Assembly: GCA_023264975.1 (NCBI GenBank)
Contig: JAHFUS010000044.1
Span: 1-32,643 of the forward strand
Direction: 5' to 3'
Source: Actinomycetes bacterium
GTDB lineage: Bacteria; Actinomycetota; Acidimicrobiia; Acidimicrobiales; GCA-2861595
Length of the DNA stretch: 32,643 nt
Part shown: one piece after another, positions 8,954 to 32,643 of the stretch
Layout of the letters: each line of letters opens with the position of its first letter
Position numbering within the stretch: position 1 is the stretch's first letter
Position numbers and translations under genes: made by a program
Notes under the pieces: model-generated
The model's input: the letters and a program-made list of their open reading frames with translations, nothing else
Database searches by the model: none
Told to the model about the DNA's origin: nothing

Positions 8954-11430
8954 GCAATCGCCGGAGCCTCCGGTCGCGTCGGGGCGGCTCGGTACCGATC
9001 ACGAAGACCGAGGAGCTCCAGTACGACCACCTCGTCCTCATGCGCGAGTCGTCAGCGTACGACCGGGTGCTTATGGAGGGGATGATCCACCAGACCCTCA
9101 GCACCGTCCTCCACCTACCCGGGGCCGCTGAGTTACGCGACGCCGGAGTCCGCGTGTTCGAGAATCCGGGCGCCTACGGAGGCACCCTGCTGCGAGTCGG
9201 CAGGAGCCGGGTGGTGCTTCTTGAGCGCGAGGGCACCATCTACATGTACGTGATGGGAAGCGCGGCTGCCCGCGACAACGAGGACGATACCAACGGCTTC
9301 GTCCGCGAGCTGATCCGGATCCTGGCGAGGTACCGCCCGCAGGAGTTGTGGATGGCGGCGTTCACGCGCCTCGTCCGCAGCTCCGAGCACACCGGCGACC
9401 TGCTCAAGGCGATCACCGAGAACGTTCGCGTCCTCCACTGCGAGACCACCATCACCCCGAGCACGCCCGAGGGCAAGCTGGTCTTTCAGACCCTGGCGAT
9501 GATCGCCGCGATCGAACGCGACTACATCGTGCGACGCCACACCGCCGGTCGGGTCGCTCAGTGGCGGCGGGGAGAGTGGATCCCGAACGCGTACCCCCCG
9601 GGCTGCTTGAAGATCGACAAGCAGCTACAACTCGACGCCCCGATGGTAGACCCCGTTCGGCAAATGCTCACGGCGTTGGGCGATCCCAACAACAACTCGG
9701 CCTCCCTGGTTGAGGAGTTTGGGGCGCTCGGCGTCACGACGCCGAAGCTCCAGGAGATCTACGGTCCGGGCGCGACGATCGCCGACGCCCGAAACCCCAC
9801 GGAGGTAATCACCACCCTGCTCGGCTGGCGGGAGGCCTACCGCACCGGCCGATACGAGCTGCTGTGGACGAACCCATTCCCGGGTATTGAGTCGATCGCC
9901 GGCGTCCCGGTGGAAGCCTCCGGCGACCCGGAACGGCCCAACGGCGTGCTGAAGATGGTCTACGACATCCCCGTTCCCGACGGAGGCTGGGCCGATGAGG
10001 AGACCTTCGACCGGATCGAGCAGCGGCTCCGGCGGCGGATCGACGGCGTATTCGATACGGGTGGGACCACCCACAGCCGGACGGCACCCCTCGCCGGGTT
10101 CTTCCGAACTGTGGACAGCGAAGGGAGGGAGTCGAAGCTGTTCGCGGGCGAGTCCGGCACCACGTACCGCCTGCTGCGGCGGCCACTGGACGAAAGCCGC
10201 CGCCACACCGGCTGGACATCCGCGAAGTCAGACGCCGCGGTCGTCGCTGTGATCGAGCGCCGCGACCTGCACCGGTCAATCGTCGAGACTGCTGCCGCTG
10301 CGTTCGAGGCCGGATTGCCGGCCGACCTCGACATCACCCGCTTCGTCCAGCAGGGAACCCTGCCGCGCTTCGACCCGGCCGGCATCCGCCGGCGAACGCT
10401 CGACCGTGACCTGACCGACGTGCGGGGGCGGCTCCGGATCGCAAAGCGAAACGCCGAGCTCGCGGGCGACGACGAGGACGCGAAGATCTTCGTCGACGAG
10501 GTCCTCGCCCTCACGAAGGCGGAGCGACAGCTCATCCGCCGTCTCGAACTTCTGCGGACCAAGCGGCGCGACGCCATCCTCACCCCCACCTTCGAGTCGG
10601 ACGCCGCGCAGCTCGTCTATGCCCTATCGACCCTTGCGCAGTTGGTCGGCAGCGGCCCGGCGCAGCTGCGGAGCGCACTGCGGATCGTGATCAGCAACGA
10701 GACCATGACCCTGGGCGAGGACTGCGTGCATTGGAGCCTGACGCTCGAGCTTCCCCACGGGGATGGCACCGTGATCCTCGGACCCATCATCGGGTCGGTT
10801 CCATGTAGGCGACCCCGTGGGGCCCTCCTCAGCGGGCTCGTGCCGACCCTGCCTAAGCGAACGCGAAGGGCAATGGTAAACACGCTGATCGGGCTCGGGT
10901 ACCCGGATCGTGCCGCCCGCGCTGCTGCCGCCTGTCCGCACCCGGAGTTGGTTGCCGCCCTCACGGCAGCCGCCCGTCACGAGCCCGTTCCGCCGGGCCT
11001 CGACCCCTCGTGGGCCCGCTGGGTCGCCGACGAGTACCGGCGACCGGACTTCGCCTGGGAGCGGAACAAGTGGCGGCTCACCTACCCCACACGCCAGGCG
11101 GTTCTCGACGCCATCCACGCCAGGGATGGAGCGGCGTCCCGGAGCGATCTGGAGGGCGACGGCTTCGTCGAAGTCCAACTCCGCTACCTCGCGCGGGACC
11201 TCCCCGGGCCGACCGGCTGGCCCATCCTGGCCGTGGAAGGACGAGGCGCCTCCAAGCGTTACAGCTTGCTCGCCTGCCCTCACTGCGGTAGGTGGGCGAG
11301 CGAGTCGAGTGTCACGCCCGAGACAAAGCCGGGCATCCTCTGTCCGGATTGCCTGCGGCTGCCGATCGCCAGCTCGCCGGTCTTCCCGAGCTGGTATGTC
11401 CCGATCCGTAGCGGTAAGGCAGGTGGATAG
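8950..11430 (+). CDS. Large, divergent serine recombinase
   Basis: An 826-residue protein. The N-terminal region resembles the resolvase fold: FTRLVRSSEHTGDLLKAI (138-155) corresponds to the usual DRLxRS box. The stretch ITPSTPEGKLVFQTLAMI followed by AAIERDYIVRRHTAGR corresponds to the conserved E-helix region. The usual YxRxS nucleophile motif is not clear; LMRESSAYD with S34/S35 is the best candidate. The recombinase domain is followed by a long charged region (about 480-560, RRRTLDRDLTDVRGRL) likely to be coiled coil. The C-terminus has CPHC (776-779) and CPDC (798-801), a probable zinc ribbon. The start is supported by GGAGG six bases upstream of ATG 8950. It probably integrates the neighbouring island. 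An inactive relative is possible because the catalytic motif is divergent. Confidence 0.7.
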   Translation: MSNRRSLRSRRGGSVPITKTEELQYDHLVLMRESSAYDRVLMEGMIHQTLSTVLHLPGAAELRDAGVRVFENPGAYGGTLLRVGRSRVVLLEREGTIYMYVMGSAAARDNEDDTNGFVRELIRILARYRPQELWMAAFTRLVRSSEHTGDLLKAITENVRVLHCETTITPSTPEGKLVFQTLAMIAAIERDYIVRRHTAGRVAQWRRGEWIPNAYPPGCLKIDKQLQLDAPMVDPVRQMLTALGDPNNNSASLVEEFGALGVTTPKLQEIYGPGATIADARNPTEVITTLLGWREAYRTGRYELLWTNPFPGIESIAGVPVEASGDPERPNGVLKMVYDIPVPDGGWADEETFDRIEQRLRRRIDGVFDTGGTTHSRTAPLAGFFRTVDSEGRESKLFAGESGTTYRLLRRPLDESRRHTGWTSAKSDAAVVAVIERRDLHRSIVETAAAAFEAGLPADLDITRFVQQGTLPRFDPAGIRRRTLDRDLTDVRGRLRIAKRNAELAGDDEDAKIFVDEVLALTKAERQLIRRLELLRTKRRDAILTPTFESDAAQLVYALSTLAQLVGSGPAQLRSALRIVISNETMTLGEDCVHWSLTLELPHGDGTVILGPIIGSVPCRRPRGALLSGLVPTLPKRTRRAMVNTLIGLGYPDRAARAAAACPHPELVAALTAAARHEPVPPGLDPSWARWVADEYRRPDFAWERNKWRLTYPTRQAVLDAIHARDGAASRSDLEGDGFVEVQLRYLARDLPGPTGWPILAVEGRGASKRYSLLACPHCGRWASESSVTPETKPGILCPDCLRLPIASSPVFPSWYVPIRSGKAGG

Positions 11431-11625: not shown

Positions 11626-14600
11626 GTGAGTGCAGAACGGGTCGCCTTCCTGGTCGAGGTGCTCGGCAGCGCCGGGCCGGCGGGCCTGGAGGCGGCCGAG
11701 CTCCTCGGGCACCTGCGCCGGCGCTGGCCGGCGCTGACCCCGGCCCAGGCCCAGCGCCTGGTGGAGGCCGCCGGCGCCGCGGTGATGGTCGAGGGCGGCC
11801 GGCTGCGGGCGTCGGCGTCCACCGGCCGGGAGGCCGGCCCGGCCGGGACGGCGCCGGGGGCGGGCCGGCCGTGGCGAGCCGTGGCCGTCGACGTCGAGTC
11901 GTCCACCCGGCTGGTGACCGAGGCGCCCTACGTGGCGGCCCGGATCTTCCAGGTGGGGGCCGTGCGCTTCGGGCGCGACACCGCCTGGGTGGCGGCGGCC
12001 GAACGCTTCGAGGCCTGGGTCGAGCTGCCCGAGGGCTACGCCATCTGGGACCCGGGCCGGGCCGGCCGCCACGCCACCGAGGCGCGCCCGGAAGCCGACG
12101 TGCTGACCGAGCTGGCCCGCTTCTGCGCCGATGCCGATGCCCTCGTCGCCCACAACGGCGTCGAGTTAGACTTCCGGCTGCTGGACGAGGCGGCCGCCCG
12201 GGCGGGCCAGCCGCCGCTGGGCGGCGCCCGGGTGGACAGCCTCTACGCCGGTCTGGCCCTGTGGCCCCTGCCCGCCAACGCCCACCGCCTGCGCGACCTG
12301 GCCGAGCGGGTGGGGGTCGAGGTCGGCGACCTGTCCTGGCACGACGCCGTCGACGACGCCGTGTGTGCGGCGCGCCTGATGGAGGCGGCCGGCGCCGCCG
12401 TGGCGTCCTGGGACGGGGCCCGGGCCGGCCTGGTCGGGGCGGTGGGCGCCGCCAGCCCGACCTGGCGGATGGTGTTCGACCTGGCTGGGCGCCCGGTGCC
12501 GGCCCGCGCGCCGGGAGACGCCGAGGTGGCGGCCTGCCTGGCCGCCCTCGTGGCCGGCCGGCCCGTGCTGCGGGGTGCGCCGCCGCCGCCAGCCCCGGTG
12601 GTCCCCGCTGCCCTGCGCGACTCCGACGGGGCCGTGGACCCCCACCGCATCGCCTTGGCGGTCCGGGGCGGCGCCGAGCGCCGCCCCGCCCAGGACGAGA
12701 TGGCCGCCGTGCTGCGCCGGCTGGTGGCCGACGGGAGCGACGGCATGGTGGAGGCGCCCACGGGGGCGGGAAAGACCTACGCCATCCTGGCCGCTGCCCT
12801 GGACTGGCTGGACGCCCACCCCGACGGGTGCGTGGTGGTGGCGACCCACACCAAGCAGCTGCAGACCCAGCTGGCCGGCGACCTCGAGGCCCTGGCCGCC
12901 GCCGGGCTGGGGTGGGTCGGCTCCGCCGCCGCGCTGGTCAAGGGCCAGGCCAACCGCCTGTCCCTGCGGGCCTTGGTCGGAGCCCTGGCCGACAGCGCGG
13001 CAGCCGCCGTCGGCCCGCCGCCCCGGCGGCGCCGACGCGGCCCGGCCCCGCCGGCCGAGGACTTCCGCTTCGCCGAGCTCGCCCTCTATGTGCTGGCCCG
13101 CCTGGCCGCCACACCGTCCCGCCTGGCCGAGGCGTGGGAGGCGGCGTCGGTGGACCCCGTCGACGTCCCCGCCTTCTTCGACGCCTACCTGGGCTGGCGC
13201 CGCGGCCGGTACCTGGGCGCGCTGTCGCAGGCGGAGTCGGGCGACTACCCCGACGACGGGGGCCGGGACGCCCTACGGGCGCGCACCGAGACAGCGGCCG
13301 AGGCGCTCGGGCGCCACCGCCTGATCGTGGCCAACCATGCTCTGGTGCTGGCCCACCTCGAGGACTTCGACGTCCCCGACACGCTGCTCGTCATCGACGA
13401 GGCGCACGGCTTCGAGGCTGCGGCTACTGAGGCGCTGTCGGCCGAGGTCGACTACCAGGGCTTCGAGGCCCTCGCCGCCGAGGCCGCCCGCTTCGGGGCC
13501 GAGGTGGCCGCCGCCACGTCGGCCGGCGCCGCGGTGTCGGGGGCGGCGGGCGCCCTGGAGCGCATCCTCGACTCCGGCCGCCTGCCCAACGCCGCCATGC
13601 GGGCCTTCGACCGCCTCGCCGGCCCCCCCGACCGCAACAGCACGCCCCGCCAGGCCGTGCTGGTGTCGGATTACGCCGGCGCCGCCGGCCGCCGCCACGT
13701 GTTCCAGGTGGTGGGGGAGCTGCGTCGCCTGGCCCGGTCCGTCGCCAGCCTGCGCCGGGCGCTTGGGTACTTCGCCGCCGTGGTCGACCCGACCACCCTC
13801 GACCGCTTCGACGCCGACCGGTACTTCTCGCTCACGAGCCGGGCCACCGCCCTGGGGGAAGCCACGGAGGCCATCGTCGCCGACGTGGACGCCATGCTCG
13901 GCCCGCCGCCCGCCCTCGGCGGCGGGGACGGCGGCGCAGCGGGTGCCGGGGACGGACCGGGGGCGCCGGGGGACGGCTCGGGGCCGGCGGGGGACACCCG
14001 GAACGGTTCGGGGACGAGCGCCCCGGGGAGCCGCGAGTACCCCGAGCGGGAACCGGGCGGTGAGGGGGAGGAGGAGACCGCCGACGCCGACGACCTGGAG
14101 GGGGTGGCCGAGCTGGTGGCAGCCGAGGAGGCGGCCCGGGAGCGCAACGGGATCGGGGAGGAGAGCGCCGGAGGGCCCGGCGGGGGGGTCGGGGAGGAGG
14201 GCGCCGGAGGGCCCGGCGGGGGGGTCGGGGAGGAGGGCGCCGGAGGGCCCGGCGGGCCGGGTGCAGCCCTGGCGCCGCTGTCAAACCGGGTGGTGTGGGC
14301 GGCCGAGCTCGGGGGCGGGAGGCTGGTCGAGGGCGAGCGGGGGTTCCGCTTCCGGATCGTCACCAGCCCCATCGACCTGCCCCGGGAGCCGGCCTGGGCC
14401 GGCCTGCGGGCCCGCTTCGCCCGCAGCCTGTGGGTGTCGGCCACCCTCACCGTTTCCGGGTCGTGGGGCTACATCCGCTCGAGGTGGGGCTTCGGCCCCG
14501 AGGTGGCGGCCGCCCGGCTGGGCTCGCCGTTCGACTACGCCACCCAGGCCCGCCTCGTCTGCCTCGGGGACTTCCCGTCGTGGGCCGAGCACCCCGACCA

Positions 14601-17600
14601 GGCCCTGCGCTCGGTGTCCTGGCAGGCGGCCGGGTTCCTGGCCGAGTGCGCCCGCAGCGAGCCTCCCGGCCCCGACGGCATCCGCGCCCTGGCCGGCGGT
14701 GCCATGGTGGTCACCACCTCCACGGCCGTCGCCGCCGGCATCGCCGAGCGCCTGGCCGCCGACCTGGCCGGGCGGTGGCCGCAACGGCGGGGGACCGAGG
14801 CGGCTCCGGTCGTCCACGCCGCGCCGCTGGTCGGCAACGCCCGGGCGGCGGCCGGCTACCGGGCCGGAGGCGGGGCCCTGGTCGGCACCAAGGGCCTGTG
14901 GGCCGGGGTGGACGTGGCCGAGCCGGCGCGGACCCGGCTGCTGTGGGTCAACAAGCTGCCCTTCGCCCCCTTCGGCGACCCCCTGGTGGCCACCCGGCGC
15001 GCCGCGGTGGTGGCCCGGGCGGAGGCGGCGGGGGCCGAGGACCCCGAGGCGGTGGCCACCGAGGACTACTACCTGCCGCTCGCCGCCCTCGAGCTGCGCC
15101 AGGGGGTGGGCCGGCTCATCCGTTCGAGCGCCCACCGGGGGGCGATCGTGATCTCGGACCGCAAGCTGGCCGGCGACGACCGCCTGCGCCGGCTCTACCG
15201 CCGGGTGTTCCTGGCCTCCCTCGACGAGGGGCTGTGCGCCGGGGACCCGGCCGGCGACGACGGCTGGGCCGCCAATGTCGCCACCATGGCCGAGGGCTGG
15301 GCCCGCATCTGGTCGTTCCTGGCCGACGGAGGCGACGTCGAGGCGGACCGGGCGGCTGAGTTGTGCCAGCCCGAGGCCCTCGAGGACCACACCGTGCTGC
15401 CCGAGACCCGGGCCATCCGGGCCCTGGCCCTGAGCGAGGGCGAGGTGGCGGAACTGGCCGGCCAGGGCCGGCTGGTGGCCGAGGTGGCCGAGCGCTGCGC
15501 GGCGGTGGCTGGTTACCTGCGCCTGGCGGGAGGGCCGGTGGTGCTCAAGGAGCACCAACGGGCGGTCATCGCCCGGGTGGCGGCCGGCGACGACACCCTG
15601 GCCCTGCTGCCCACCGGCTACGGCAAGAGCTTCTGCTACCAGCTGCCCGCCCTCGTCCTGCCCGGGGTGACGGTGGTGATCTCCCCCCTGGTGGCGCTCA
15701 TGACCGACCAGGCGCTGTCGCTCAACCGATCCATCGGCGGGGCCGTGCGGGCCCTGGTGGGGCCCATGCGGGAGTCGGTGTCGCGCACGGGCAAGGCCGA
15801 GGTGGCGGCCCAGCTGGCCGGCTCGGCCGATCACGGCATCCGCCTGGTGTACGTCTCGCCCGAACGCGCCGCCCAGCGCGCCTTCGCCGACGCGCTGCGG
15901 GCGGGGGCGGCGACGGGCAACCTGGCCCGCCTGGCCGTGGACGAGGCGCACACCCTGGTGGCCTGGGGCGACGACTTCCGACCCGCCTTCCGCCGCCTCG
16001 AGGGCCTCATCGACCAGCTGCGGGGCCTGGCCGCGGCGGGCGGGCGGGACCTGTCCGTCACCGCACTCACCGCCACGGCCAACCGCAGCGTCCGCGACGG
16101 CCTGCGGTCCCAGCTGTTCGGATGTCCGCCCGACGGCCCCGACCGGGCTCGCTTCGCCACCGTGGCCGCCAACCCGATCCGGCCCGAGATCGCCGTGTGG
16201 CGGCGCTCGCTCGGCCGGGCCCGGGGCGGGCCGCTCGGAGTGGCGGGGCTGGTGGAGGCCGTGGCCGACGCCGCCCCGGGCCACCTCATCGTGTACTGCA
16301 CCACCATCCGGGAGACCGACACGACCTGGGCCCAGCTGCGGGACTGGGCCGGGCCCGAGGGCTCCTGGCGGGTCCGGCGCTTCCACGGCCGCCTGCCCGG
16401 GGCGGAGAAGGCCGACGTCCTCAATGCCTTCCGTTCCGCCCCCCGGGCCGGCGAGGAGGGCTACGCCCCCATGATCGTGGTCGCCACCTCGGCTTTCGGC
16501 CTGGGCGTGGACCGCGACGACATCGCCGCGGTGCTGGTTGCCTCGCCTCCCACCGACCTGGCCGCCCTCCACCAGGCCATCGGCCGGGCGGGGCGGGCCC
16601 AGGCCGGGCTACCGCCTGGGGATCCCCGACGCACCGGGGCGGTGGGCATGGCCCTGGCCACCGCCCGGGGATGGCGCACGGTGGACTTCCTCACCACCGC
16701 TGACCTGCCGGCCGCCGCGCTGGAGGCGGCGGGCCGGGCCGTGCTGGGCTCGGGCGGGCTGGTGGACCCCTCAGCCATCGGGGACCGCCTGTTGGCCGCC
16801 GAGGTGGCAGCGGGGCGCATGGCGGCGAGGCGGGCGATGCTGTGGCGCACCCGGGACGCCTACCGGCTGGCCGTGCTGCGGGCGCTGGCCGCCCTGGCCT
16901 TCCTGGGCGCGGTGGAGGACCGCGGCGACCTGCCCGAGGTGGTGCGGCTCCAGCCCGGCGAGGTGGCGCCCACCGAGGCGGCCGACGCCGCCCTGGTGGC
17001 CGGCGTGCTCGGCGTGGAGGCCGACGAGCGCCGGGCCGTGCGCCTCGAGGACCTGGCCCGCCACCTGCGCGCCGGCGGGGCGGTGGAGGCGGGGTGGGGC
17101 CCGGCCGAGGTGTGGTCGGCGCTGGTGGAGGCGCACGCGGCCGGGTGGCTGGACGTGTCCCAGGCGCCCACCCGGCGCTGGTTGACCGCCGTGGTGGTCC
17201 GCCGCACCACCCTGCCCGACGCCTACGGCGCGCTGGTCGGGCGCCGGGCGGTGCGGGCGGCCGGCGAGCTGGCCGAGCTGCGGGCCTGGTTCGACGACCG
17301 GGCCTGCGCCCAGGAGGGCCTGGCCCGGTACTTCGACGTGGCCGCGCCCGCCGAGACCTGCGCCGACGCCGGCTGCCGGTGCTCGACGTGCTGGTTCGAC
17401 CCGGCCGCCCTGGCCGGCGACCCCTCGCCCCAGCCGCCGTTGTTCGGGGCCTTCTTCGCGGCCCGCCCCCGGCCGGTGTCGGCGGCCACCGAGGTCCGCC
17501 AGGCGGCCGAGGTCGACCGCCTGGTCACCCGCCTGCTGTGGGACACCCACGGCGGGCTCGGCCCGACCCTGCTGCACTCGGTGCTGGTGGGACGCGACAC

Positions 17601-17859
17601 GGTGTTCAACGCCCGCACGGGCGACCGCCGGCCCTTGCGGCCCCGCCTGCTCTACCACGCCGCGTTCGGGCGCAAGCCTGGCCTGCGGCCCCAGGCCGTG
17701 GTCGACAGCCTGGAGCGCCTGGCCGACGCCGGCGCGGCGGTGCGGGTGGACGCCACCTTGTGGCGGTGGGCCGGCCACGTCGAGGCCGACCGCCGCCGGG
17801 CTGCGCGGACGGGCACCGCCCCCGGTGCCGCAGCCGACACCGTCACACCCGGTCCGTAA
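11626..17859 (+). CDS. DnaQ exonuclease - DinG helicase - RecQ helicase fusion protein
   Basis: 2077 residues, three nucleic-acid enzymes in one chain. Residues about 84-250 form a DEDD 3'-5' exonuclease: D89-x-E91, AHNGVELDF (H176, D182), and H239/D243/D244. Residues about 370-1200 form a DinG/XPD-type helicase: Walker A APTGAGKT (377-384), DEAH 591-594, motif VI QGVGRLIRS from 1159. It lacks the Fe-S cysteines, because the usual KGRxNYxC site reads KGQANRLSL. A Gly/Glu-rich linker (about 765-885) interrupts it. Residues about 1305-1680 form a RecQ-like helicase: Walker A PTGYGKS (1329-1335), DEAH from 1439, TALTATANRS, and HQAIGRAGRA. A cysteine cluster follows at 1912/1917/1919/1922 (RecQ-type zinc site), then a wHTH-like end. 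First gene of a three-gene operon, intact. The start is GTG 11626 with no strong ribosome site. Likely role: DNA unwinding and degradation in phage defence or repair (inferred). Confidence 0.88.
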   Translation: MSAERVAFLVEVLGSAGPAGLEAAELLGHLRRRWPALTPAQAQRLVEAAGAAVMVEGGRLRASASTGREAGPAGTAPGAGRPWRAVAVDVESSTRLVTEAPYVAARIFQVGAVRFGRDTAWVAAAERFEAWVELPEGYAIWDPGRAGRHATEARPEADVLTELARFCADADALVAHNGVELDFRLLDEAAARAGQPPLGGARVDSLYAGLALWPLPANAHRLRDLAERVGVEVGDLSWHDAVDDAVCAARLMEAAGAAVASWDGARAGLVGAVGAASPTWRMVFDLAGRPVPARAPGDAEVAACLAALVAGRPVLRGAPPPPAPVVPAALRDSDGAVDPHRIALAVRGGAERRPAQDEMAAVLRRLVADGSDGMVEAPTGAGKTYAILAAALDWLDAHPDGCVVVATHTKQLQTQLAGDLEALAAAGLGWVGSAAALVKGQANRLSLRALVGALADSAAAAVGPPPRRRRRGPAPPAEDFRFAELALYVLARLAATPSRLAEAWEAASVDPVDVPAFFDAYLGWRRGRYLGALSQAESGDYPDDGGRDALRARTETAAEALGRHRLIVANHALVLAHLEDFDVPDTLLVIDEAHGFEAAATEALSAEVDYQGFEALAAEAARFGAEVAAATSAGAAVSGAAGALERILDSGRLPNAAMRAFDRLAGPPDRNSTPRQAVLVSDYAGAAGRRHVFQVVGELRRLARSVASLRRALGYFAAVVDPTTLDRFDADRYFSLTSRATALGEATEAIVADVDAMLGPPPALGGGDGGAAGAGDGPGAPGDGSGPAGDTRNGSGTSAPGSREYPEREPGGEGEEETADADDLEGVAELVAAEEAARERNGIGEESAGGPGGGVGEEGAGGPGGGVGEEGAGGPGGPGAALAPLSNRVVWAAELGGGRLVEGERGFRFRIVTSPIDLPREPAWAGLRARFARSLWVSATLTVSGSWGYIRSRWGFGPEVAAARLGSPFDYATQARLVCLGDFPSWAEHPDQALRSVSWQAAGFLAECARSEPPGPDGIRALAGGAMVVTTSTAVAAGIAERLAADLAGRWPQRRGTEAAPVVHAAPLVGNARAAAGYRAGGGALVGTKGLWAGVDVAEPARTRLLWVNKLPFAPFGDPLVATRRAAVVARAEAAGAEDPEAVATEDYYLPLAALELRQGVGRLIRSSAHRGAIVISDRKLAGDDRLRRLYRRVFLASLDEGLCAGDPAGDDGWAANVATMAEGWARIWSFLADGGDVEADRAAELCQPEALEDHTVLPETRAIRALALSEGEVAELAGQGRLVAEVAERCAAVAGYLRLAGGPVVLKEHQRAVIARVAAGDDTLALLPTGYGKSFCYQLPALVLPGVTVVISPLVALMTDQALSLNRSIGGAVRALVGPMRESVSRTGKAEVAAQLAGSADHGIRLVYVSPERAAQRAFADALRAGAATGNLARLAVDEAHTLVAWGDDFRPAFRRLEGLIDQLRGLAAAGGRDLSVTALTATANRSVRDGLRSQLFGCPPDGPDRARFATVAANPIRPEIAVWRRSLGRARGGPLGVAGLVEAVADAAPGHLIVYCTTIRETDTTWAQLRDWAGPEGSWRVRRFHGRLPGAEKADVLNAFRSAPRAGEEGYAPMIVVATSAFGLGVDRDDIAAVLVASPPTDLAALHQAIGRAGRAQAGLPPGDPRRTGAVGMALATARGWRTVDFLTTADLPAAALEAAGRAVLGSGGLVDPSAIGDRLLAAEVAAGRMAARRAMLWRTRDAYRLAVLRALAALAFLGAVEDRGDLPEVVRLQPGEVAPTEAADAALVAGVLGVEADERRAVRLEDLARHLRAGGAVEAGWGPAEVWSALVEAHAAGWLDVSQAPTRRWLTAVVVRRTTLPDAYGALVGRRAVRAAGELAELRAWFDDRACAQEGLARYFDVAAPAETCADAGCRCSTCWFDPAALAGDPSPQPPLFGAFFAARPRPVSAATEVRQAAEVDRLVTRLLWDTHGGLGPTLLHSVLVGRDTVFNARTGDRRPLRPRLLYHAAFGRKPGLRPQAVVDSLERLADAGAAVRVDATLWRWAGHVEADRRRAARTGTAPGAAADTVTPGP
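14152..14259 (+). repeat. In-frame tandem repeat, three copies of 36 bp
   Basis: Three adjacent copies encode IGEESAGGPGGG, VGEEGAGGPGGG and VGEEGAGGPGGP inside the linker of the helicase fusion. The last two copies are nearly identical at DNA level. It probably varies in number between strains by slippage. Confidence 0.9.
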
Positions 17860-17910
17860 GCTGGAGAAGACGGCCGCAACTATGTGCGCGGCGGTCGTCC
17901 CGGAGGCTCC

Positions 17911-20094
17911 TTGCCCGCACCGCCGCTGGTGGCCGAACTCGAAATGCCGGTGCTCTTCGTGCCCGAGCTCGTCCTCGGCGTCGACGCCCTGGCGCCGGTC
18001 GACCGCGCCCGGCTGGTGGCGCACCTGGGCCGGGTGGCGGCCGGCCGGGGCGGGCTCGTGCATCCCAACGTGGCCTGGAACGCCCTGTACTTCGGCTGGG
18101 ACCCTGTCGAGGGGACCTACGGCGCCCACGGGGTGGACCTCGACGCCTGCCCGCCCCTGCGCCACGGCGACGCCACCGACGCCGTGCCCGTGGGGACCCT
18201 GTGCTGGGTGGCGCTGGGCAACGACGTGTGCTGGGGCGAGGTCGTCTACAAGGAGGGCGCCCACCCCGGCATCGGCGCCGACGGTGAGGTGGCCCCGGAG
18301 ATCTCGGGTGGGGCGGCCACGGCGTCGTGGGGCACCGACGGCCCGGTGGCGGTGGTCGTCGAGCGCCTGGTGGTGGACTTCGAGGCCTTCGGGCCCGACG
18401 AGCGCCGGGGCCACCGCCTGGAGCGCTTCGCCCGCCAGGGCCGCCACCTCGACGCCGCCGGGCACGTGGTGGTCGATGCCGTCTACGCCCCTCCGGCCGA
18501 CGCCGAGGTCGACGACCGGGCCTTCTACGCCCGGTGGCTGTGGAGGACCCAGCGCCAGTCCCTGCGGGAGGGATGGCTGGGCGCCTGCCTGGACGACGCC
18601 GGCGACGACGAGGCCTTGTGGGCCGCCCTGGTCGGCTCGCTCGCCACGGTGGACTCCCTGCTCGACGAGGTGCCCGGCCTGGCCGCCTGGGGCGCCTACC
18701 GTTACGTGGAGGCCGGCTACCGGGTCCGCCTGGGCGATCACGACATCCCCCTCGGCGCGGCCGACGCCCGCCACCTCACCGCCTCCCTGGCATCGCCGCC
18801 TCGGCCGCCGGCGCGGGTTGCCTACCGGGCCCTGCGTCCCCGGCTGGTGGAGCTGGCCGGCGCCGGCGAGGCCGACCTGCGCTTCGCCGCCTACCCGGCC
18901 ACGGTGTGCCACGCCAACCGCATGGTGGCCGACACCCTGGCGGAGGCCGCCCCCGACGGGGTGCTGGCCCGGGCCGGCCACGCCGTGCACCTGCGCCTCG
19001 ACGACACCTGGCAGGCGGGCGGGGTGTGGCGGGCCGAGCTACTCGACGCCGCCACGGCCTGCCCGCTGCTGGCGGTCGAGCCCACCCGGCCCCTGGGCCT
19101 GGGCGCCTCGGGCGAGGCGGCCGATGTCCATTCCCCGCTGCCGGTGGTCGAACCGGAGCCCGAGCCCGGCCCGGGACCCCAGCCCGACCCGGGACCCGAA
19201 CCCGAGCCCGAACCCGAACCCGACGAGCCCGCCCTCGCCGACAGCCATGTCCACTGGTGTGTGGCGCTGCGCCGCTCGCACCACGCCGAGGGCTACCTGG
19301 TGGTGCCCGAGGCCGCGGGGCTGACGGAGGGCACTGCGGTGGTGCGCCTGGCCCATGAGGGCGACCTGGCTCCCGAGGAGGCGTCCCAGTGCGCCCGGGT
19401 CACGGAGGGCGGCCGGCGCCTTGAGGGCCTGGTGTGGCCGTTCGACTTCTTCCCCGGCATCCGCCTGTGGTGCATCGCGGCGCCCGGCAGCCCGGTGGTG
19501 CACCTGGCCACCGCGGCACTGGCCGAGCCGGTGGAGGTCGAGGGGGTCCCCTACTGGTTCGCGCTGGACCCCTCCGTGCTCGACCCCCGCCGCCCCAGCG
19601 GGGGAGAGGCGACGCTGGCCGACCTGGCCGTGCGGGTCCTGCGCCGCCACGGCGCCGACGACGGCCAGGGACGCCTGGCGCTCGGCTCGGGGGACCTGGC
19701 CAGGTGCCTGTTCGGGCCCGAGGTCGACCCCGTGGTGACAGCCGCGCTGTCCGAGGCGCTGGACGCCGCCGCCGGGCGAGGCCGGGTGTCGGTCACCGCT
19801 GACGGGCGTTTCGCCGTGGAGGCCCCCCGCCAGGGCCGGTCCGGCCCGGCCGGCGGGGCCTTCGCAGGCGCCGACACCCCCACGGGGGGCGGCCTGTCGC
19901 GGCTGCACGCCGGAGTCCGCAGCCTGCACTGGGTCGTCCTGCACCTGCGGCAGTTGCCGGTGTCCCCCCGAGCCAGCGCCGAGCGCCGGGCCGAGTACCG
20001 CGTGCTGCGGGCCGACGCCCCCAACCGCCACCTGCTCCCGCCCGAGCTGCCCGACGGGTACACCTTCGTGGCCGAGCACCGGCGGGGCTCGTGA
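17911..20094 (+). CDS. Middle protein of the three-gene operon, unrecognised
   Basis: About 727 residues from TTG 17911, chosen because GGAGG (17902-17906) lies four bases upstream; GTG 17884 and ATG 17944 are alternatives. It begins 51 bases after the helicase stop. The protein has two folded halves joined by a Pro/Glu hinge (about 414-440, with PEPEPEPEPDEP). The N-terminal half begins near LEMPVLFVPELVLGVDAL and contains HPNVAWNALYFGWD and AYPATVCHANRMVADTLAEA. The C-terminal half has HWCVALRRSHHAEGYLVVPE and WPFDFFPGIRLWCIAAPG. No catalytic motif, membrane helix or signal peptide was seen and I recognise no family. Its place between a helicase and an ATPase suggests an adaptor or structural subunit (inference). 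TerB-type motifs were looked for and not evident. Confidence 0.75.
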   Translation: MPAPPLVAELEMPVLFVPELVLGVDALAPVDRARLVAHLGRVAAGRGGLVHPNVAWNALYFGWDPVEGTYGAHGVDLDACPPLRHGDATDAVPVGTLCWVALGNDVCWGEVVYKEGAHPGIGADGEVAPEISGGAATASWGTDGPVAVVVERLVVDFEAFGPDERRGHRLERFARQGRHLDAAGHVVVDAVYAPPADAEVDDRAFYARWLWRTQRQSLREGWLGACLDDAGDDEALWAALVGSLATVDSLLDEVPGLAAWGAYRYVEAGYRVRLGDHDIPLGAADARHLTASLASPPRPPARVAYRALRPRLVELAGAGEADLRFAAYPATVCHANRMVADTLAEAAPDGVLARAGHAVHLRLDDTWQAGGVWRAELLDAATACPLLAVEPTRPLGLGASGEAADVHSPLPVVEPEPEPGPGPQPDPGPEPEPEPEPDEPALADSHVHWCVALRRSHHAEGYLVVPEAAGLTEGTAVVRLAHEGDLAPEEASQCARVTEGGRRLEGLVWPFDFFPGIRLWCIAAPGSPVVHLATAALAEPVEVEGVPYWFALDPSVLDPRRPSGGEATLADLAVRVLRRHGADDGQGRLALGSGDLARCLFGPEVDPVVTAALSEALDAAAGRGRVSVTADGRFAVEAPRQGRSGPAGGAFAGADTPTGGGLSRLHAGVRSLHWVVLHLRQLPVSPRASAERRAEYRVLRADAPNRHLLPPELPDGYTFVAEHRRGS
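19150..19230 (+). repeat. Pro/Glu dipeptide repeat (hinge in the middle protein)
   Basis: A run of alternating CCC/GAG/GAA codons encodes PEPEPGPGPQPDPGPEPEPE and following residues. This is a typical extended inter-domain hinge and a likely site of length variation. Confidence 0.85.
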
Positions 20095-20183
20095 GCGGCC
20101 GGCCGTGGTGGCGGGGCGACCGGGCCGTCCCGTCGGGTACGGCGGGCACTGGAGGCGGCCCAGCTCCCGTTGGCACTCGAGGC

Positions 20184-20190
20184 AAGGAGG
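20184..20190 (+). promoter_or_regulatory. Ribosome binding site that fixes the ATPase start
   Basis: AAGGAGG lies six bases before GTG 20197. The upstream in-frame TTG 20170 has no comparable site, so 20197 is preferred. The 102-base gap after the middle gene shows no terminator, consistent with one transcript. Confidence 0.75.
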
Positions 20191-20196
20191 AGCACC

Positions 20197-23100
20197 GTGG
20201 TTGACCACAGCGACGTCTTCAAGGCCGACGACGGCGAGGACGCTCCCGTAGACGAACCCATGGCCGAGGTGATCGCCGCCATCGAAGCGGCCTGCCAGTT
20301 CCTCGACGGGCTCCCTGACCCGTTGCGTCAGCTGTGGACGCGCCTCGACCCCGCCGAGCTGGAGCGCCTGCTGCGCGATTGCGGGCCGCGCGTCGAGACC
20401 ATGCTCCGGGACTTTTCGGCCCCTTCCCCCCGCCGCCCCAACCGGGCCACCGCCCACCACCTGCGCCGGGCCGTCGGCAGCCTCAGCCCCAGCCGGCTGG
20501 AGCGGGCGGTGCACTTCGTGTGCACGCCGGTGATCTCCGAGGTACGCCACCAGGGCGTCGACGACGCGCTCGTGCGCTGGGGTCCGGCCCTCTGTCAGCT
20601 GGCCCTGGTCGCCGGCGCGCTGAACCGGAAACGCTCACCAGCCCTGGCACCGTACTGCGTAAGCTCCCTGCTCGAACTCGACCTGCTCCCCGAGGCCTGG
20701 CAGGCGCACCGCGACGACCTCGAGGCGGTCTGCGACGAGGCCATCGGGGCCCTGGCCGGGGCGGACGAGGACGAGGACGAGGACTTCGAGGACGTCGACG
20801 TGGAAGAGATGGAGCGGGCCACCATCGCCGAGGAGCTGGCCGGACTGAAGCCGGCGGAGCTGGCGCCGTGGGCGGCAGCCCAGGTCGAAGCCTGTCGTGG
20901 TGCCCTGGCCGAGGCGCGGGAGGCGGGGGCCGCCGTGGTGGCCGCCGTCGACGCCGGGGCGACTCCCGACTTCGACTCGGCCCGGATCGTGATGATGAGC
21001 ATCGCCGTAATCAGCCGGGCAGCCCGGCGGGTCCACGCCGCCCTGCAGCATTCCGGCGGGACGCCGGTGGCGGGCGACGACATCGCCTCCCTGGAGCGGG
21101 CGGTGTCGGCCATCGCCGACGCAGTGGACCCCGGTGCGGCCGTGCTGCGGCGCCTGGCGGCCGTGGAGGGTCCGCCGGGCGCAGACGCACTGATGGCCGG
21201 CCTGGTCCAGGCGGCCCGCGACCCCGACCGGCGCGAGTTCGCCCTGGCCCTGGTCGGCCTCATCGACGCCGTCGCCGTCGGAGCCGGGCCGCTGCGGGTG
21301 GCGGAGTTGGACGCCGCCGCCCGCCAGGTGGCGCCGGGCGAGCTCACCGCCGCCGTCGTGCTGGCCGCCACCGGGCATCTCCACCTCCCCACGGCCACCT
21401 CCCCGACGTCCTCGGCGCCCGACGGGGCCGCCGCCACGGCTGGCGATGCATCGAAGCCCCAGGCGGCGCCGCCCACCCCCGAGGTTGTCGCCGAGGGTCC
21501 CGAGCCGCCGGCTGCGCCGCCCACCCCCGAGGTTGTCGCCGAGGCCCCCGCTGCGCCGCCCACCACGGCCGTGGAGGCTGGCCGGTCGGGGACCGGCATC
21601 GGCTCCGAGCCAGCCGCGGCGGATCACCACGCAGGCCCACCCGAGGCCGCGTCCCATGCCCCCACCGGCGAGGTGGGTCGACCCGCGCCGGCGCCGACCG
21701 CCACCAGGGCGCAGCCGGCGTCCGGCCCGTACGCACCGGGCAGACCCGTGGTGAGCCCGGTCCCCGCCCCGGCGCCCTCGCTCAGCGACGAAGCCGCCGT
21801 CGAGGCCCAGGCGGAGGAGCGCATCTGGGCCTGTGAGCAACTGGTGCTCTCCGCCCTGGAGCAGCGCCGTTTCGCCCTGGCGTGGTGGGCGTCGGTTGCC
21901 TCGGGCGCCCCGGCGCGGCTGCTGCGCCTGGTGGCCCTGGCCACCTCCGTGCACACCTCGACGGGACCGACCACCGACGCCCTTCGGGACGAGACCCTGG
22001 GGCTGTCGCGCGCGTCGTACGGGTCGTTCCCCGGCATCCAGGTGCTCGCCGCCCTCGCCGCGGTGCGAGCCTCGCTGGTCGCCCCCACGGGCGCCACCTC
22101 CTCGGTGGCCGCCGAGCTGGCCCGTATGCTCGAGCTACCGGGCCTGGGCCGACTGGCCGAGGCGGCGGTCACCGCCGCCAACCGGGGCGTGGCCCTGGCC
22201 GGCGACACCCTGTCGGGCCTGGGCGACGCCGACCGGCTGGATACCCGCATCCGGGCTCACGCCGCCGAAGCGGCCGGCCTGCTGGGCAAGGAGCGCCGCT
22301 TCAACTTCCAGCGGGCCAGCGAGATCTGGCGGATGTGGACCGCTGCCGACGGACTGCTCGGCGCCGTGCTCGCCCCGGTGGCGGCCGACGACAGGTCCAG
22401 GGTCGGGGAGGTGGCCACCGTCGCCGCCGCCCTGCGGGAGCGGGGGGCGGCGGAGCGGGCACTGCGTGACGCCGACGGGAGGCTGCGGGGCAGCGGGTCC
22501 AAGCGCATCGAGGGCTCGGCCCGCAACAACCTGCTGGAGGCCGCCGCCGACGCCGCCGGGCGGGCCCTGGCCTGGTGCAACGACGTCGCCCAGCTGTCGC
22601 GCTCGGCTCGCGACGCCGGTTGGCTCGACGTCCCCACCGCCGAGCTGCGCTCCGCCGCCACCGAGGTGGAGGTCGTGGTGCGCAACGAGCTGCGGGGGGC
22701 CGCCACCGATCCCGTCAGCGCGGCGGCCGCAGGCGCCGCCGGCGAGGTGCTGGACGACATCTACCGCCTGCTGGCGGGCCAGCCGCCGGAGGCAGGGCTG
22801 GAGGCGCCGGCGATGATCCTCGGCCTGGACCTGCTGCTCGGCGATTCCCGGGTGGACGCCGAGCTGGCGCCGGTGGGCCGCCTTGAGCCCGAGCAGCTGG
22901 CCCCGGGCCTCACCCGGGACCTGCGCGACGCCTTCGCGGCCCGGTCCCGGCGGGGCGACCACCTGGCCTCGGGGCTGATCGTGGAGGCGCTGGCCGCCAC
23001 CGACCCGGACGACGCCCGGGCGCTAGACGCCCGCCGCACCGAGATGGTGGCTGCGGCCCGGGCCGCCACCGAGGCGGCGGTGGCGGTGGCCCGCACCCAA

Positions 23101-26100
23101 CTCGACCAGGCCCGCCGCCAGCTGTTCGTCTCCGAGGACCGCTACGCGGAGCTGGCGGCGCGCCTGGAGGGCGCGGCCCGGCCCGGTCGCGAGGACTTCG
23201 ACGCGCTGGAGGAAGAGCTCGCCGCGGTGGAGGTCGAGGTCGGCGAGGACCGTCGCCTGGCCGTCGAGCAGTTCCTCTCCCAACTCGACCGGGCGGCCGC
23301 CGACGCTCCTGCGCTGGCCGCCGTGCGCGACCGGATCGCGACGCTGGCGGTCACCGACCTGGCCACTGCGGCCGAGTGGCGGTCCCTGGCGGCCGAGGGC
23401 CGCTCGCTGGCCGAGGCGGCCGAGGTCGACTTCGACCTCGGCGAGATCTGGCCGGGCGCCGTCGAGGCGGTGGGGCCGTCCATCACCGACGAGCTGGTCG
23501 AGGCGGCGGCCGCCCGCCGGGACCACGGGTCGCTGCAGTTCTCCGCCCTGGCCCCGGAGGCGGCCGAGCGGGGGGCGGCCGCCCTGCGCCGGTGGCGGCG
23601 CCTGGGCCGGGGCGCGGCCCGGCGCAACGACTGGCTGGAGGAGCTGCGCCCGGTGCTTCGCCTGCTCGGCATCGATGCCGACGGGTTGGACGCCGCCGCC
23701 GCCAGGGCCCTGCCCTCGTCCCCGCAGCGCCAGTGGATCGAGCTCACCGGGGTGGACCGCCGTGGCTCGCGGGCCCTGGTCCCGGCCTTCGGGTCCAAGG
23801 CCGGCCCCCGCCTGCGGGTGCTGGTGGCCGCCGCCGCCCCCTCGGAAGCGGCCCTGCTGGAGTGGGCCACCCCCGAGCACACTGACCGGCCCGTGCTGGT
23901 GTTGCACCTGGGGACCCTGCCGGCGGAGTTCCGGGACCGCTTCTCCCAGTCCTGCCGCCAGCGCCGCGCCCGGCCCACAGTGGCCGTGGTGGACGACGCG
24001 GTGCTGGCGTGGGCGGCGGCGCGGGGCGAGTTTCGCTTCGAGACGCTCATGCGGGCCGTGCTGCCGTGGTGCGCCACCAACCCCTACCTCCCGCCGTCGG
24101 GCGACTGCCCCCCGGAGCTGTTCTACGGCCGCTCCGACGCCCGGCGCTCCCTAATCGACACCGCCGGGTCGTGCTTGCTCTACGGAGGCCGCCAGTTGGG
24201 CAAGTCCGCCCTGTTGCGCTCGACGGTGCGCGACTTCGACGCCGTGCCCGGCAACGTCGCCTGCTACATCGACCTGAAGCCCTCCTCCATCGCCTCCACC
24301 CGCCGCGCCGACGTGGTGTGGGACCTGCTGTGGAAGCGCCTGGGCGAACACGGCGTGGTGCCGGCGGGCAAGGCCGTGGGCAAGGACCCGGCCACCAAGG
24401 TGGAGGCTGCGGTGAAGGCCTACCTGGCCGCCGACGCCGGCCGGAGGATCCTGGTGGCCCTGGACGAGTGCGACGAGTTCTTCGACGTCGACGCCGCCAC
24501 CAGCTTCGCCACCACCAGCCGGCTCAAGGACCTCATGGACACCACCGGCCGGCGCTTCAAGGTGGTGTGGGCCGGCCTGCATCAGGTAGCCCGCTTCGCC
24601 AACATCCCCAACCAGCCGCTGGTCCACCTGGGTCGGCCCATGCCCATCGGCCCCCTCGACCCCGGCTCGGCACACCGCCTCATCGCCGATCCCATGCGGG
24701 CGCTCGGGATCACGTTCGCCAGCCCCGACCTGGTCAACCGGGTCCTGGCCTACTGCAACTACCAGCCGGTGCTGCTGCACCTGTTCGGCTCCGCCCTGGT
24801 GGAGCAGATGCTGTTCCCGCCCAAGGCCCCGCCGCCGGTGGTGGTGGAGGCCACCGACGTCGAGGCGGTGGCGTCCTCGCCCGGCCTCCAGCACGAGGTG
24901 TGGGAGCGCTTCGAGTGGACCCTCCAGCTCGACCCCCGCTACCGGGTCATCGCCTACACCGTCGCCTTCGAGGCCCATAACCGGGGCATCGAGGTGGCCC
25001 TGCCCGCCTCCGAACTGCGGGCGGCCTGCGAGCGGTGGTGGCCGACGGGCTTCGCCAGCCTCGACCCTGCGGAGTTCCGGGCCCTGCTGGAGGAGATGGC
25101 CTCCCTCGGCGTGCTGTCCGCCTCCACGGGCCGCACCGGCTGGCGGCTGCGCTCGCCCAACGTGCTGCGCATGCTCGGCACCGTGGCCCAGGTCGAGGAC
25201 CGCCTGCTGGAGGAGGAGTCCCGCCTGCCGACCTGGCTGGTGGCCACCGAGGCCCGCCGGGTCCTGGCCGACGGCCGGCGCTCGCCGGTGACCGAGGGCC
25301 AGCTGGCCGACCTGGTGGGCGAGGGCCGCAACCAGGTGCGGGTGGTCATCGGCTCCGAGGCCACCTGCGTGGGCGCCCTGGCCGATGCCGTGCGATCGGT
25401 GGCGGACGCCACCGGGCGGTTCCGGGTCCGCCTTCCCGGCAACTACGACACCTTCCGGCGCAACCTCGGCGAGGGCAGTGTGGGCGAGCACCTCGTCGTC
25501 GTGTCGGACCTGCGGGGGGTGTCGGACGAGAGCTTCGCCAAGACCCTGTCCGCCGCCGTCACCCGGGTGCCCAGGGGCGGGACCCGCTCGGTGCTGGTGG
25601 TGGCCGACGCCTCGAACTTCGAGGCGGTGGCCGGACTGGTCGACCCCGCCGGCGAGGCCGTCGCAGGGGTCGAGGTGCTGCCCCTTCGCCGCCTGGACTC
25701 GCGAGGCATGCGGGCATGGGCGCTCGAGGTGGAGTCGGCCTTCCAGGACGACGAGGCCCGCCGGCGGCTGGCCGACATCACCGGAGGCTGGCCCGTGCTG
25801 ATCGACCAGGCGGGCGAGCTGGCCCGCAAGGGCCTCGGCACGGGCGAGATCCTGGCCGAGATGGCGACCCGCCTGGCCGCAGACGTCGGCATGGCCGGGT
25901 TGATCGCGGCCGTCGGCCTCGGCCGCGAGGGCCCGCTGGTCGCCCTGGTGAAGTCCCTCGCCGCCTCCCCCGGCGCCGGCCTGGCTCCCGAGGACCTGGC
26001 CGTGTTCGTAGAGGACTGCGACCGCCCGGCGGCGGTGGTGGCCATGCTGCGCGGCCTTGGGGTGCTGGAGACGGCGCTCGGTACCGAGGGCGAGCTGCGC

Positions 26101-26154
26101 CTTGAGCCCGTCCTGGCCCGCTGCTGGGCGGCGGCCCCCAACGGCGACGGTTAG
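20197..26154 (+). CDS. Giant STAND/AAA-like ATPase, third gene of the operon
   Basis: 1985 residues. The N-terminal third is helical, with an acidic patch (about 189-206, DEDEDEDFEDVDVEEME). A Pro/Ala/Thr linker follows (about 422-522). The middle (about 540-1130) is Ala/Arg/Glu-rich helix likely to include coiled coil (DALEEELAAVEVEVGEDRRL). A pre-ATPase block ends in NPYLPPSGDCPPELFYGR from 1295. The P-loop is GGRQLGKS (1330-1337), Walker B is ILVALDECDEFF (D1423, E1424), and the sensor-like stretch is VVWAGLHQVARF. Winged-helix and further C-terminal regions follow (about 1590-1985). The order P-loop, LDECDEF and GLHQV fits STAND-type ATPases, which in other systems act as sensors or switches. 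A strong ribosome site fixes the GTG start. The gene looks intact. Ligand and partner are unknown. Confidence 0.82.
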   Translation: MVDHSDVFKADDGEDAPVDEPMAEVIAAIEAACQFLDGLPDPLRQLWTRLDPAELERLLRDCGPRVETMLRDFSAPSPRRPNRATAHHLRRAVGSLSPSRLERAVHFVCTPVISEVRHQGVDDALVRWGPALCQLALVAGALNRKRSPALAPYCVSSLLELDLLPEAWQAHRDDLEAVCDEAIGALAGADEDEDEDFEDVDVEEMERATIAEELAGLKPAELAPWAAAQVEACRGALAEAREAGAAVVAAVDAGATPDFDSARIVMMSIAVISRAARRVHAALQHSGGTPVAGDDIASLERAVSAIADAVDPGAAVLRRLAAVEGPPGADALMAGLVQAARDPDRREFALALVGLIDAVAVGAGPLRVAELDAAARQVAPGELTAAVVLAATGHLHLPTATSPTSSAPDGAAATAGDASKPQAAPPTPEVVAEGPEPPAAPPTPEVVAEAPAAPPTTAVEAGRSGTGIGSEPAAADHHAGPPEAASHAPTGEVGRPAPAPTATRAQPASGPYAPGRPVVSPVPAPAPSLSDEAAVEAQAEERIWACEQLVLSALEQRRFALAWWASVASGAPARLLRLVALATSVHTSTGPTTDALRDETLGLSRASYGSFPGIQVLAALAAVRASLVAPTGATSSVAAELARMLELPGLGRLAEAAVTAANRGVALAGDTLSGLGDADRLDTRIRAHAAEAAGLLGKERRFNFQRASEIWRMWTAADGLLGAVLAPVAADDRSRVGEVATVAAALRERGAAERALRDADGRLRGSGSKRIEGSARNNLLEAAADAAGRALAWCNDVAQLSRSARDAGWLDVPTAELRSAATEVEVVVRNELRGAATDPVSAAAAGAAGEVLDDIYRLLAGQPPEAGLEAPAMILGLDLLLGDSRVDAELAPVGRLEPEQLAPGLTRDLRDAFAARSRRGDHLASGLIVEALAATDPDDARALDARRTEMVAAARAATEAAVAVARTQLDQARRQLFVSEDRYAELAARLEGAARPGREDFDALEEELAAVEVEVGEDRRLAVEQFLSQLDRAAADAPALAAVRDRIATLAVTDLATAAEWRSLAAEGRSLAEAAEVDFDLGEIWPGAVEAVGPSITDELVEAAAARRDHGSLQFSALAPEAAERGAAALRRWRRLGRGAARRNDWLEELRPVLRLLGIDADGLDAAAARALPSSPQRQWIELTGVDRRGSRALVPAFGSKAGPRLRVLVAAAAPSEAALLEWATPEHTDRPVLVLHLGTLPAEFRDRFSQSCRQRRARPTVAVVDDAVLAWAAARGEFRFETLMRAVLPWCATNPYLPPSGDCPPELFYGRSDARRSLIDTAGSCLLYGGRQLGKSALLRSTVRDFDAVPGNVACYIDLKPSSIASTRRADVVWDLLWKRLGEHGVVPAGKAVGKDPATKVEAAVKAYLAADAGRRILVALDECDEFFDVDAATSFATTSRLKDLMDTTGRRFKVVWAGLHQVARFANIPNQPLVHLGRPMPIGPLDPGSAHRLIADPMRALGITFASPDLVNRVLAYCNYQPVLLHLFGSALVEQMLFPPKAPPPVVVEATDVEAVASSPGLQHEVWERFEWTLQLDPRYRVIAYTVAFEAHNRGIEVALPASELRAACERWWPTGFASLDPAEFRALLEEMASLGVLSASTGRTGWRLRSPNVLRMLGTVAQVEDRLLEEESRLPTWLVATEARRVLADGRRSPVTEGQLADLVGEGRNQVRVVIGSEATCVGALADAVRSVADATGRFRVRLPGNYDTFRRNLGEGSVGEHLVVVSDLRGVSDESFAKTLSAAVTRVPRGGTRSVLVVADASNFEAVAGLVDPAGEAVAGVEVLPLRRLDSRGMRAWALEVESAFQDDEARRRLADITGGWPVLIDQAGELARKGLGTGEILAEMATRLAADVGMAGLIAAVGLGREGPLVALVKSLAASPGAGLAPEDLAVFVEDCDRPAAVVAMLRGLGVLETALGTEGELRLEPVLARCWAAAPNGDG
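21466..21543 (+). repeat. 30-bp direct repeat in the ATPase linker
   Basis: Two exact 30-bp copies (21466-21495 and 21514-21543), each encoding APPTPEVVAE, separated by 18 bases. They lie in the Pro-rich linker and probably arose by slippage or duplication. Confidence 0.9.
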
Positions 26155-26557: not shown

Positions 26558-27211
26558 TCATTGGAGATGCCGATACTCCGCGTGCTGATGGCTCCGTTCC
26601 TCTGCCAGTTCCCGCTGTCTTCTATGGATCATCTCATGGTGCTCAAACAATGCCGTAACGGCTTCGCGGGATTGTTCTTCCTCCCAAAGGGTCTGTTCAT
26701 CATCGCACTCCTCCATATCGCTGTCGTCATCGTCTGAATCCTCGTCGGCGCCCTGATCCTTCCATTCTCCGGAAAGTATCCACGACTGAAGCTCTTCCTC
26801 ACAGTTTTCACAACGTGGTAGAACACTGTCGTCGTCACTGTCGTCGTCAGGCATATGAGCGTTGAACTCGTCGCTGCACATTGCTCGACTGGTTCCGATG
26901 ACGCGACGATGAAATCTGGTTTGATTATCCCAAACTAAGTGAAAAACGACATCCTCAATGTGGGTGGCAATGATCGAGGCTATACGAGCCTGTTCCTTCT
27001 CTCGATCCCTCTGTTGAGCAGCCGCCTGACGTTTGGCTTCTTCAGCGGCACGTCGCACAATCTGCGCTTCCTTGAATCTAGCTGCGCATCTCAAACAGCG
27101 GAATCTCTTCCGATAATAGTCGCCATGCTGGCGACAAACAGCTAAACTACACTCGACGCACTCGCCTGACGCATAGAGTCCACACATGCACTTCGGCGGA
27201 GAAGGCAACAT
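26558..27211 (-). CDS. Cysteine-rich zinc-binding protein with acidic tail
   Basis: About 217 residues from ATG 27211; GTG 27247 is an alternative that would fuse 12 more residues. Counting from that GTG, cysteines and histidine at 20, 22, 30, 33, 38, 41, 51 and 54 (KCMCGLYASGEC, then ECSLAVCRQHGDYY and CLRC) resemble a B-box or double zinc-finger arrangement. A charged helix (about 58-90, RRAAEEAKRQAAAQQRDREK) follows, then a second CENC pair and two very acidic runs (MPDDDSDDDSV, DEDSDDDDSDMEEC). There is no signal or membrane segment. The DNA is clearly AT-richer and uses more A/T-ending codons than its neighbours, a sign of transfer. Function unknown; zinc-dependent protein or DNA binding is likely. 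It is transcribed away from rpoC. Confidence 0.65.
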   Translation of the reverse strand: MLPSPPKCMCGLYASGECVECSLAVCRQHGDYYRKRFRCLRCAARFKEAQIVRRAAEEAKRQAAAQQRDREKEQARIASIIATHIEDVVFHLVWDNQTRFHRRVIGTSRAMCSDEFNAHMPDDDSDDDSVLPRCENCEEELQSWILSGEWKDQGADEDSDDDDSDMEECDDEQTLWEEEQSREAVTALFEHHEMIHRRQRELAEERSHQHAEYRHLQ

Positions 27212-27247
27212 GACTACATAGTAGCAATAGTCCGGCCTGGGGTTCAC

Positions 27248-28158: not shown

Positions 28159-32643
<4,485 letters not shown>

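Follow-up and report, generated by a model that had tools for sequence, protein, structure and literature searches.

An undescribed three-gene operon of Actinomycetota that combines an NLR-type NTPase with an exonuclease-DinG-RecQ fusion, a probable defence system

Three long genes follow one another behind a series of recombinases in a draft genome of the Actinomycetota, which raises the question of what a multi-domain DNA enzyme, a protein without known family, and a giant NTPase do together. The window, i.e., the whole stretch of DNA that was analyzed (32,643 nucleotides), is one whole contig (C7) of this genome and comprises the following genes:

62-2526, upstream of the operon: IS21 gene pair
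5631-6848, upstream of the operon: tyrosine integrase
8950-11430, + strand, directly upstream of the operon: large serine recombinase, 826 aa
11626-17859, + strand: gene A, exonuclease-DinG-RecQ fusion, 2077 aa
17884-20094, + strand: gene B, 736 aa, no family matched
20170-26154, + strand: gene C, giant STAND-type NTPase, 1994 aa, or 1985 aa if read from the GTG at position 20197

The preliminary description of this locus had reported three intact, co-directional genes without intervening terminators, next to recombinases and insertion sequences. This layout was confirmed: all three are intact open reading frames on the plus strand within 11626-26154, the serine recombinase, tyrosine integrase, and IS21 pair lie upstream, and the only terminator-like site on the scanned stretch is located 3' of C (26977), with none between A, B, and C. 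The lengths previously given for B and C (727 and 1985 aa) and the gaps (51 and 102 bases) reflect later starts; the longest reading frames yield gaps of 24 bases (A-B) and 75 bases (B-C). The later start was well chosen in the case of C, where the GTG at 20197, behind a GGAGG motif, is a better choice than 20170. Downstream of the operon, a reading frame of rpoC (28114-32643, + strand) carries on into a low-complexity Ser/Pro-rich extension that reaches the contig end, where the frame runs off the window. The gene rpoB is usually located directly upstream of rpoC; here, the place directly 5' of rpoC is taken by the foreign block together with two short genes on the minus strand. A 229-aa protein encoded at 26558-27247 (- strand) has a Cys-rich, zinc-ribbon-like N-terminus, an acidic tail, and no Pfam match.

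The composition of the block differs from that of the genome. Its G+C content is 77.2%, compared with 71.0% in a 615-kb sample of the same draft genome. Values above 77% are reached by only 0.3% of the 2-kb pieces, and the tetranucleotide distance of the block (0.29-0.34) lies above the 95th percentile (0.24). This fits a horizontal acquisition of the block, as judged by composition; the contig might conceivably be mis-binned, but the left flank looks native. A search for direct repeats marking the ends of an island detected only repeats of coding composition.

Gene A encodes three modules in a single chain:

11887-12390, + strand (approximately aa 88-255): domain 1, DnaQ-like DEDDh 3'-5' exonuclease; RNase_T E 9e-5, just short of the Pfam cutoff
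12664-15225, + strand (approximately aa 347-1200): domain 2, DinG/XPD-type helicase; Helicase_C_2 E 5e-17
15532-17391, + strand (approximately aa 1303-1922): domain 3, RecQ core and zinc-binding region; DEAD E 1e-27, Helicase_C E 4e-13

The Pfam matches of A thus comprise RNase_T (weak), Helicase_C_2, DEAD, and Helicase_C, and the single helicase of the preliminary description has to be replaced by two, DinG and RecQ. The exonuclease domain is readable in the window sequence only, where its DEDDh motif set is complete (DVES, HNGVELD, and HDAVDDA at positions 89, 176, and 239). The DinG part carries the motifs APTGAGKT, DEAH, SATL, and GRLIRS (Walker A at 377, DEAH at 591, SATL at 938, GRLIRS at 1162) and matches 6fwr in structure comparisons. 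The four FeS cysteines of this part are absent from the window protein and likewise from L014 and L026, the two homologues whose sequences extend into this region, where all three conserve a KGxxNRLSLRA motif. The RecQ part, which is 54-60% identical to its homologues in 27 loci, contains PTGYGKS, DEAHT, and GRAGR (Walker A at 1329, DEAH at 1439, GRAGR at 1653) and matches 1oyw and RecQ/BLM/WRN. Its assignment to the RecQ helicases is based on the SF2 motifs and a C...YF...C..CxC..C pattern kept in all 27 loci; the cysteine cluster at 1894-1922 is its zinc site. The helicase motifs of A are all conserved among homologues. On plasmids, only partial matches to A were found, mostly to RecQ, and no full-length homologue.

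The N-terminal part of the protein encoded by gene C is helical and contains a Pro-rich linker; an NTPase and a further alpha/beta domain follow:

24076-25179, + strand (approximately aa 1303-1670): NB-ARC/Orc-Cdc6-type NTPase and winged helix; Walker A GGRQLGKS, Walker B LVALDECDEFF
25252-25851, + strand (approximately aa 1695-1894): second NTPase-like domain of alpha/beta type, which lacks Walker motifs and has a TGGWP motif; assigned by inspection of the strand and helix order in the model and of the sequence

In an AlphaFold model of residues 1195-1994 (pLDDT 87), approximately 320 residues align with an archaeal ATPase (2qen, Z 20.5), Orc2 (19.4), the NRC4 resistosome (17.9), and CED-4 (17.2). 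The P-loop fold with its winged helix and the conserved FYGR, GGRQLGKS, and DECD motifs are those of STAND proteins, so that the earlier designation of C as a STAND-like ATPase can be sharpened to genuine membership in the STAND/NLR fold class. Matches to nSTAND1, AAA_22, and ATPase_2 are spread over the relatives of C (nSTAND1 in 3 of 20). The second NTPase domain is, in the model, a degenerate one, since its sequence has no Walker A motif. No nuclease or protease domain was recognized in C. STAND NTPases are ligand-triggered switches.

Gene B matched nothing in Pfam, PADLOC, NCBIfam, or the PDB sequences, except for low-complexity matches to its linker. The protein consists of an N-terminal domain, a Pro/Glu linker (aa 416-452), and a C-terminal half with a predicted winged helix (aa 576-651), which is the only part of the AlphaFold model (pLDDT 82) that matches solved folds (Z about 8). 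Foldseek against the PDB and viral models, and likewise VIA-align, returned this winged helix and no other known fold, and no convincing match to any viral model was found. The fold of B, as modelled, is possibly new. An alignment of 38 members (A2) contains seven invariant residues (H60, D165, H194, D373, D374, W382, and H491), but a catalytic domain was not recognizable.

The three genes form a unit. A scan of approximately 85,000 (84,980) species genomes with the core of C yielded 159 relatives at the sensitivity used, and the 80 that were fetched are all actinobacterial. Among the latter, gene A is located directly upstream of B-C in 27 actinobacterial genomes other than that of the window, from six families. 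Gene order, strand, and short intergenic distances are retained in all of them, which indicates that the operon is not a product of chance. The next most common neighbor gene occurs in at most 6 of the approximately 90 loci in which C is conserved. In a set of 21 trios, the pairwise distances of the three proteins correlate with one another (r 0.95-0.98; 0 of 2000 permutations). B and C of the window are about 32% identical to their homologues, compared with 54-60% for the RecQ part of A. The flanks of the trio vary between loci, and the trio sits at different places.

The surroundings of these loci point to a role in defence. A PADLOC search of 85 neighbor proteins encoded within 10 kb of 24 trio loci detected a complete Wadjet III set (L014), pPIWI_RE in three loci (L026, L045, and L053), a Mokosh-like protein (L029), and matches to Cas1e (CRISPR I-E) and PD-Lambda-1. 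The neighbors of B-C loci include matches to MADS, PD-T4-6, type IIG, and Lamassu-like systems, some of which concern broad kinase or ATPase models. The sole reference for the 224 kb examined downstream of the trios was the published mean of 6.14 defence systems per actinobacterial genome (PMC10482375). A unit that is recurrent, mobile, and encoded beside known phage-defence genes is probably an unrecognized bacterial immune system. The preliminary description had already proposed a defence system and suggested a survey of gene neighborhoods. That survey found the trio together in 27 other loci, with defence genes nearby and at no fixed chromosomal site; along with the foreign composition and the lack of a match to any characterized system, this makes a role in defence likely.

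Profile searches of Pfam, PADLOC, and NCBIfam matched no characterized system, in agreement with the earlier suggestion that the trio may be undescribed; a description was also absent from PADLOC (2023), the PDB sequences, and open-access papers, although a very recent one could exist. Also in open-access papers, no report of a DinG-RecQ fusion was found. The trio has a helicase and an ATPase in one operon in common with Shango (TerB, ATPase, and helicase), from which it had tentatively been set apart; indeed, in a PADLOC search with E values up to 0.1, neither B nor C was hit by any model, those of SngA/TerB and SngB included. ExoDinG (dinG_rel, TIGR01407; reviewed in PMC11981726) shares with A the order of a DnaQ-like exonuclease fused to DinG, but A reaches only 143.3 bits against a cutoff of 547.7, has an extra RecQ module, and was always accompanied by B and C wherever it was seen. 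The RecQ core of A scores on the RecQ-like DpdF (189.9 bits, with the NCBIfam cutoff at 550), but the Dpd models detect neither B nor C; the score of A on Csf4, the CasDinG of type IV CRISPR, is equally insufficient (65 bits, cutoff 400). Membership in DISARM was rejected after the same profile searches. BREX likewise combines an Orc/STAND-type NTPase, an inactive STAND-like domain, winged helices, and a helicase (BrxC is an Orc/Cdc6 ATPase and BrxB an inactive STAND; PMC12839542), but its gene set differs, and none of the BREX models in PADLOC detects B or C. Like the STAND/NLR NTPases of Avs, plant resistosomes, and CED-4, C combines an NB-ARC/Orc-type NTPase with a winged helix and a long helical partner region; it differs in its additional degenerate C-terminal NTPase and in that the effectors are encoded by separate genes.

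The trio is probably a horizontally mobile, undescribed anti-invader system of Actinomycetota, probably directed against phages or plasmids, in which a C-B switch would license A. In such a system, C would transduce the signal as an NLR-like NTPase, with the trigger probably bound by its long helical N-terminal part. As obligate partner of C, B would be an adaptor or effector that couples C to A, with its winged helix as a putative DNA-binding element. Activated C-B would then recruit or license A. DinG translocates in the 5'-3' direction and RecQ in the 3'-5' direction, and DEDDh exonucleases degrade from 3' ends. Gene A is therefore expected to encode a single-chain machine with two motors of opposite polarity and a 3'-5' exonuclease, which would unwind invader DNA, engage both strands, and degrade it in the manner of RecBCD or AddAB. 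The trigger, the formation of a complex, and the degradation of DNA are steps that we infer, and the division of labor by which C senses and A degrades is plausible but falls a little short of probable.

The most serious alternative is that B-C alone is a complete immune device, with C as switch and B as effector (e.g., abortive), and that A, which would process DNA independently or in an auxiliary role, rides along. Approximately 30 loci, among them a clade of 24 rows of Streptomyces and Kitasatospora, have B-C but no A, which indicates that B-C is the core and A a dispensable arm that is not always needed; in these loci, B-C must have its own activity or another effector. Elsewhere, C pairs with a single partner (partner D, see below) or is fused to pPIWI_RE. 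However, every A seen directly upstream is accompanied by B and C, A co-varies with both (r 0.95-0.97), and the junction of A and B is a 4-nt overlap in 10 of 25 cases, a sequence feature that suggests co-translation. A tree of C, built with a quick method, places trio members basally in both large clades and the window on a deep branch. The B-C loci that lack A are arranged in nested groups, which is explained more simply by a loss of A. Gene A looks ancestral by this topology and was apparently lost later in some lineages, which renders an independent B-C device rather unlikely. One locus (L044:5960-12559) retains a 55-aa remnant of RecQ (71% identical) before C and has apparently lost most of A as well as B. 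Streptomyces sp. SBT349 possesses two B-C loci (L018 and L060), one from each deep clade of C.

The wider family of C includes natural fusions with pPIWI_RE (L007:3991-14175, 3394 aa; L092:2930-12463, 3177 aa), both followed by partner D, and a relative located downstream of a split pPIWI_RE (L004). Partner D, which ends in a HEPN-like ARNxxAH motif, also follows relatives of C in L003, L032, and L091; it shows no relationship to B (HHalign probability 0.1%). The fused and D-paired relatives stem from plasmids and viral contigs; C itself was not found in phages, nor A and B in viral contigs. These fusions, the pPIWI_RE modules that adjoin six B-C or A-B-C loci (L002, L026, L045, L051, L053, and L072), and the DinG-type helicase common to the trio and pPIWI_RE (Ppr) islands, together with the action of DinG on R-loops, would be compatible with an RNA- or R-loop-directed restriction, as modelled for pPIWI_RE by Burroughs et al. 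(PMC3702460), in which C provides a nucleic-acid-guided signal and A unwinds the hybrid. Such a mechanism is improbable, because most trio loci have no pPIWI_RE module nearby and A, B, and C of the window contain no PIWI, MID, RNaseH_pPIWI_RE, REase, or Z domain (PF13032, PF18157, PF18154, and PF18155 are all absent); the islands comprise three genes, for PIWI-RE with MID/RNaseH, an REase-Y protein, and a Z-DinG helicase, whereas the trio has RecQ, an exonuclease, and B instead. A variably distributed operon for DNA repair or genome maintenance, with an ATPase as regulator of RecQ, DinG, and a DnaQ-type exonuclease, which are repair enzymes in the best-known cases, is hardly credible in view of its patchy spread (159 relatives of C among 84,980 species at the sensitivity used), variable flanks, foreign composition, NLR-type NTPase, and defence neighbors.

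The preferred reading, a mobile anti-invader system with A under the control of C and B, adds a conserved and probable defence operon to the Actinomycetota, a phylum from which, according to the literature, new anti-phage systems are likely to come. It joins one NLR-like NTPase family to at least three partner arms (A with B, pPIWI_RE, and a HEPN-like protein), and the sequence relationships suggest that the NTPase of C is a switch that can be re-used with different effector arms. The fusions of C with pPIWI_RE also offer a handle on the mechanism of pPIWI_RE, which has been open since 2013. Whether the trio even represents a categorically new immune machine, in which the switch C and a B of possibly new fold license a bipolar chain of DinG, RecQ, and DnaQ, a one-polypeptide counterpart of RecBCD, on a chassis re-used with PIWI-RE or HEPN-like effectors, is a more tentative proposition. 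In one member of the wider family, a prophage-like viral contig (L091:162-13347), a DEAD helicase and a protein with an MrfA zinc domain precede the C-D pair beside phage tail genes; the former two resemble DrmA and DrmB of DISARM, with the DISARM and tail labels assigned by domain content and inspection. On a Salinibacter plasmid (L003:11767-32316), the C-D pair is accompanied by a DUF3320 protein and an adjoining type I-E CRISPR locus.
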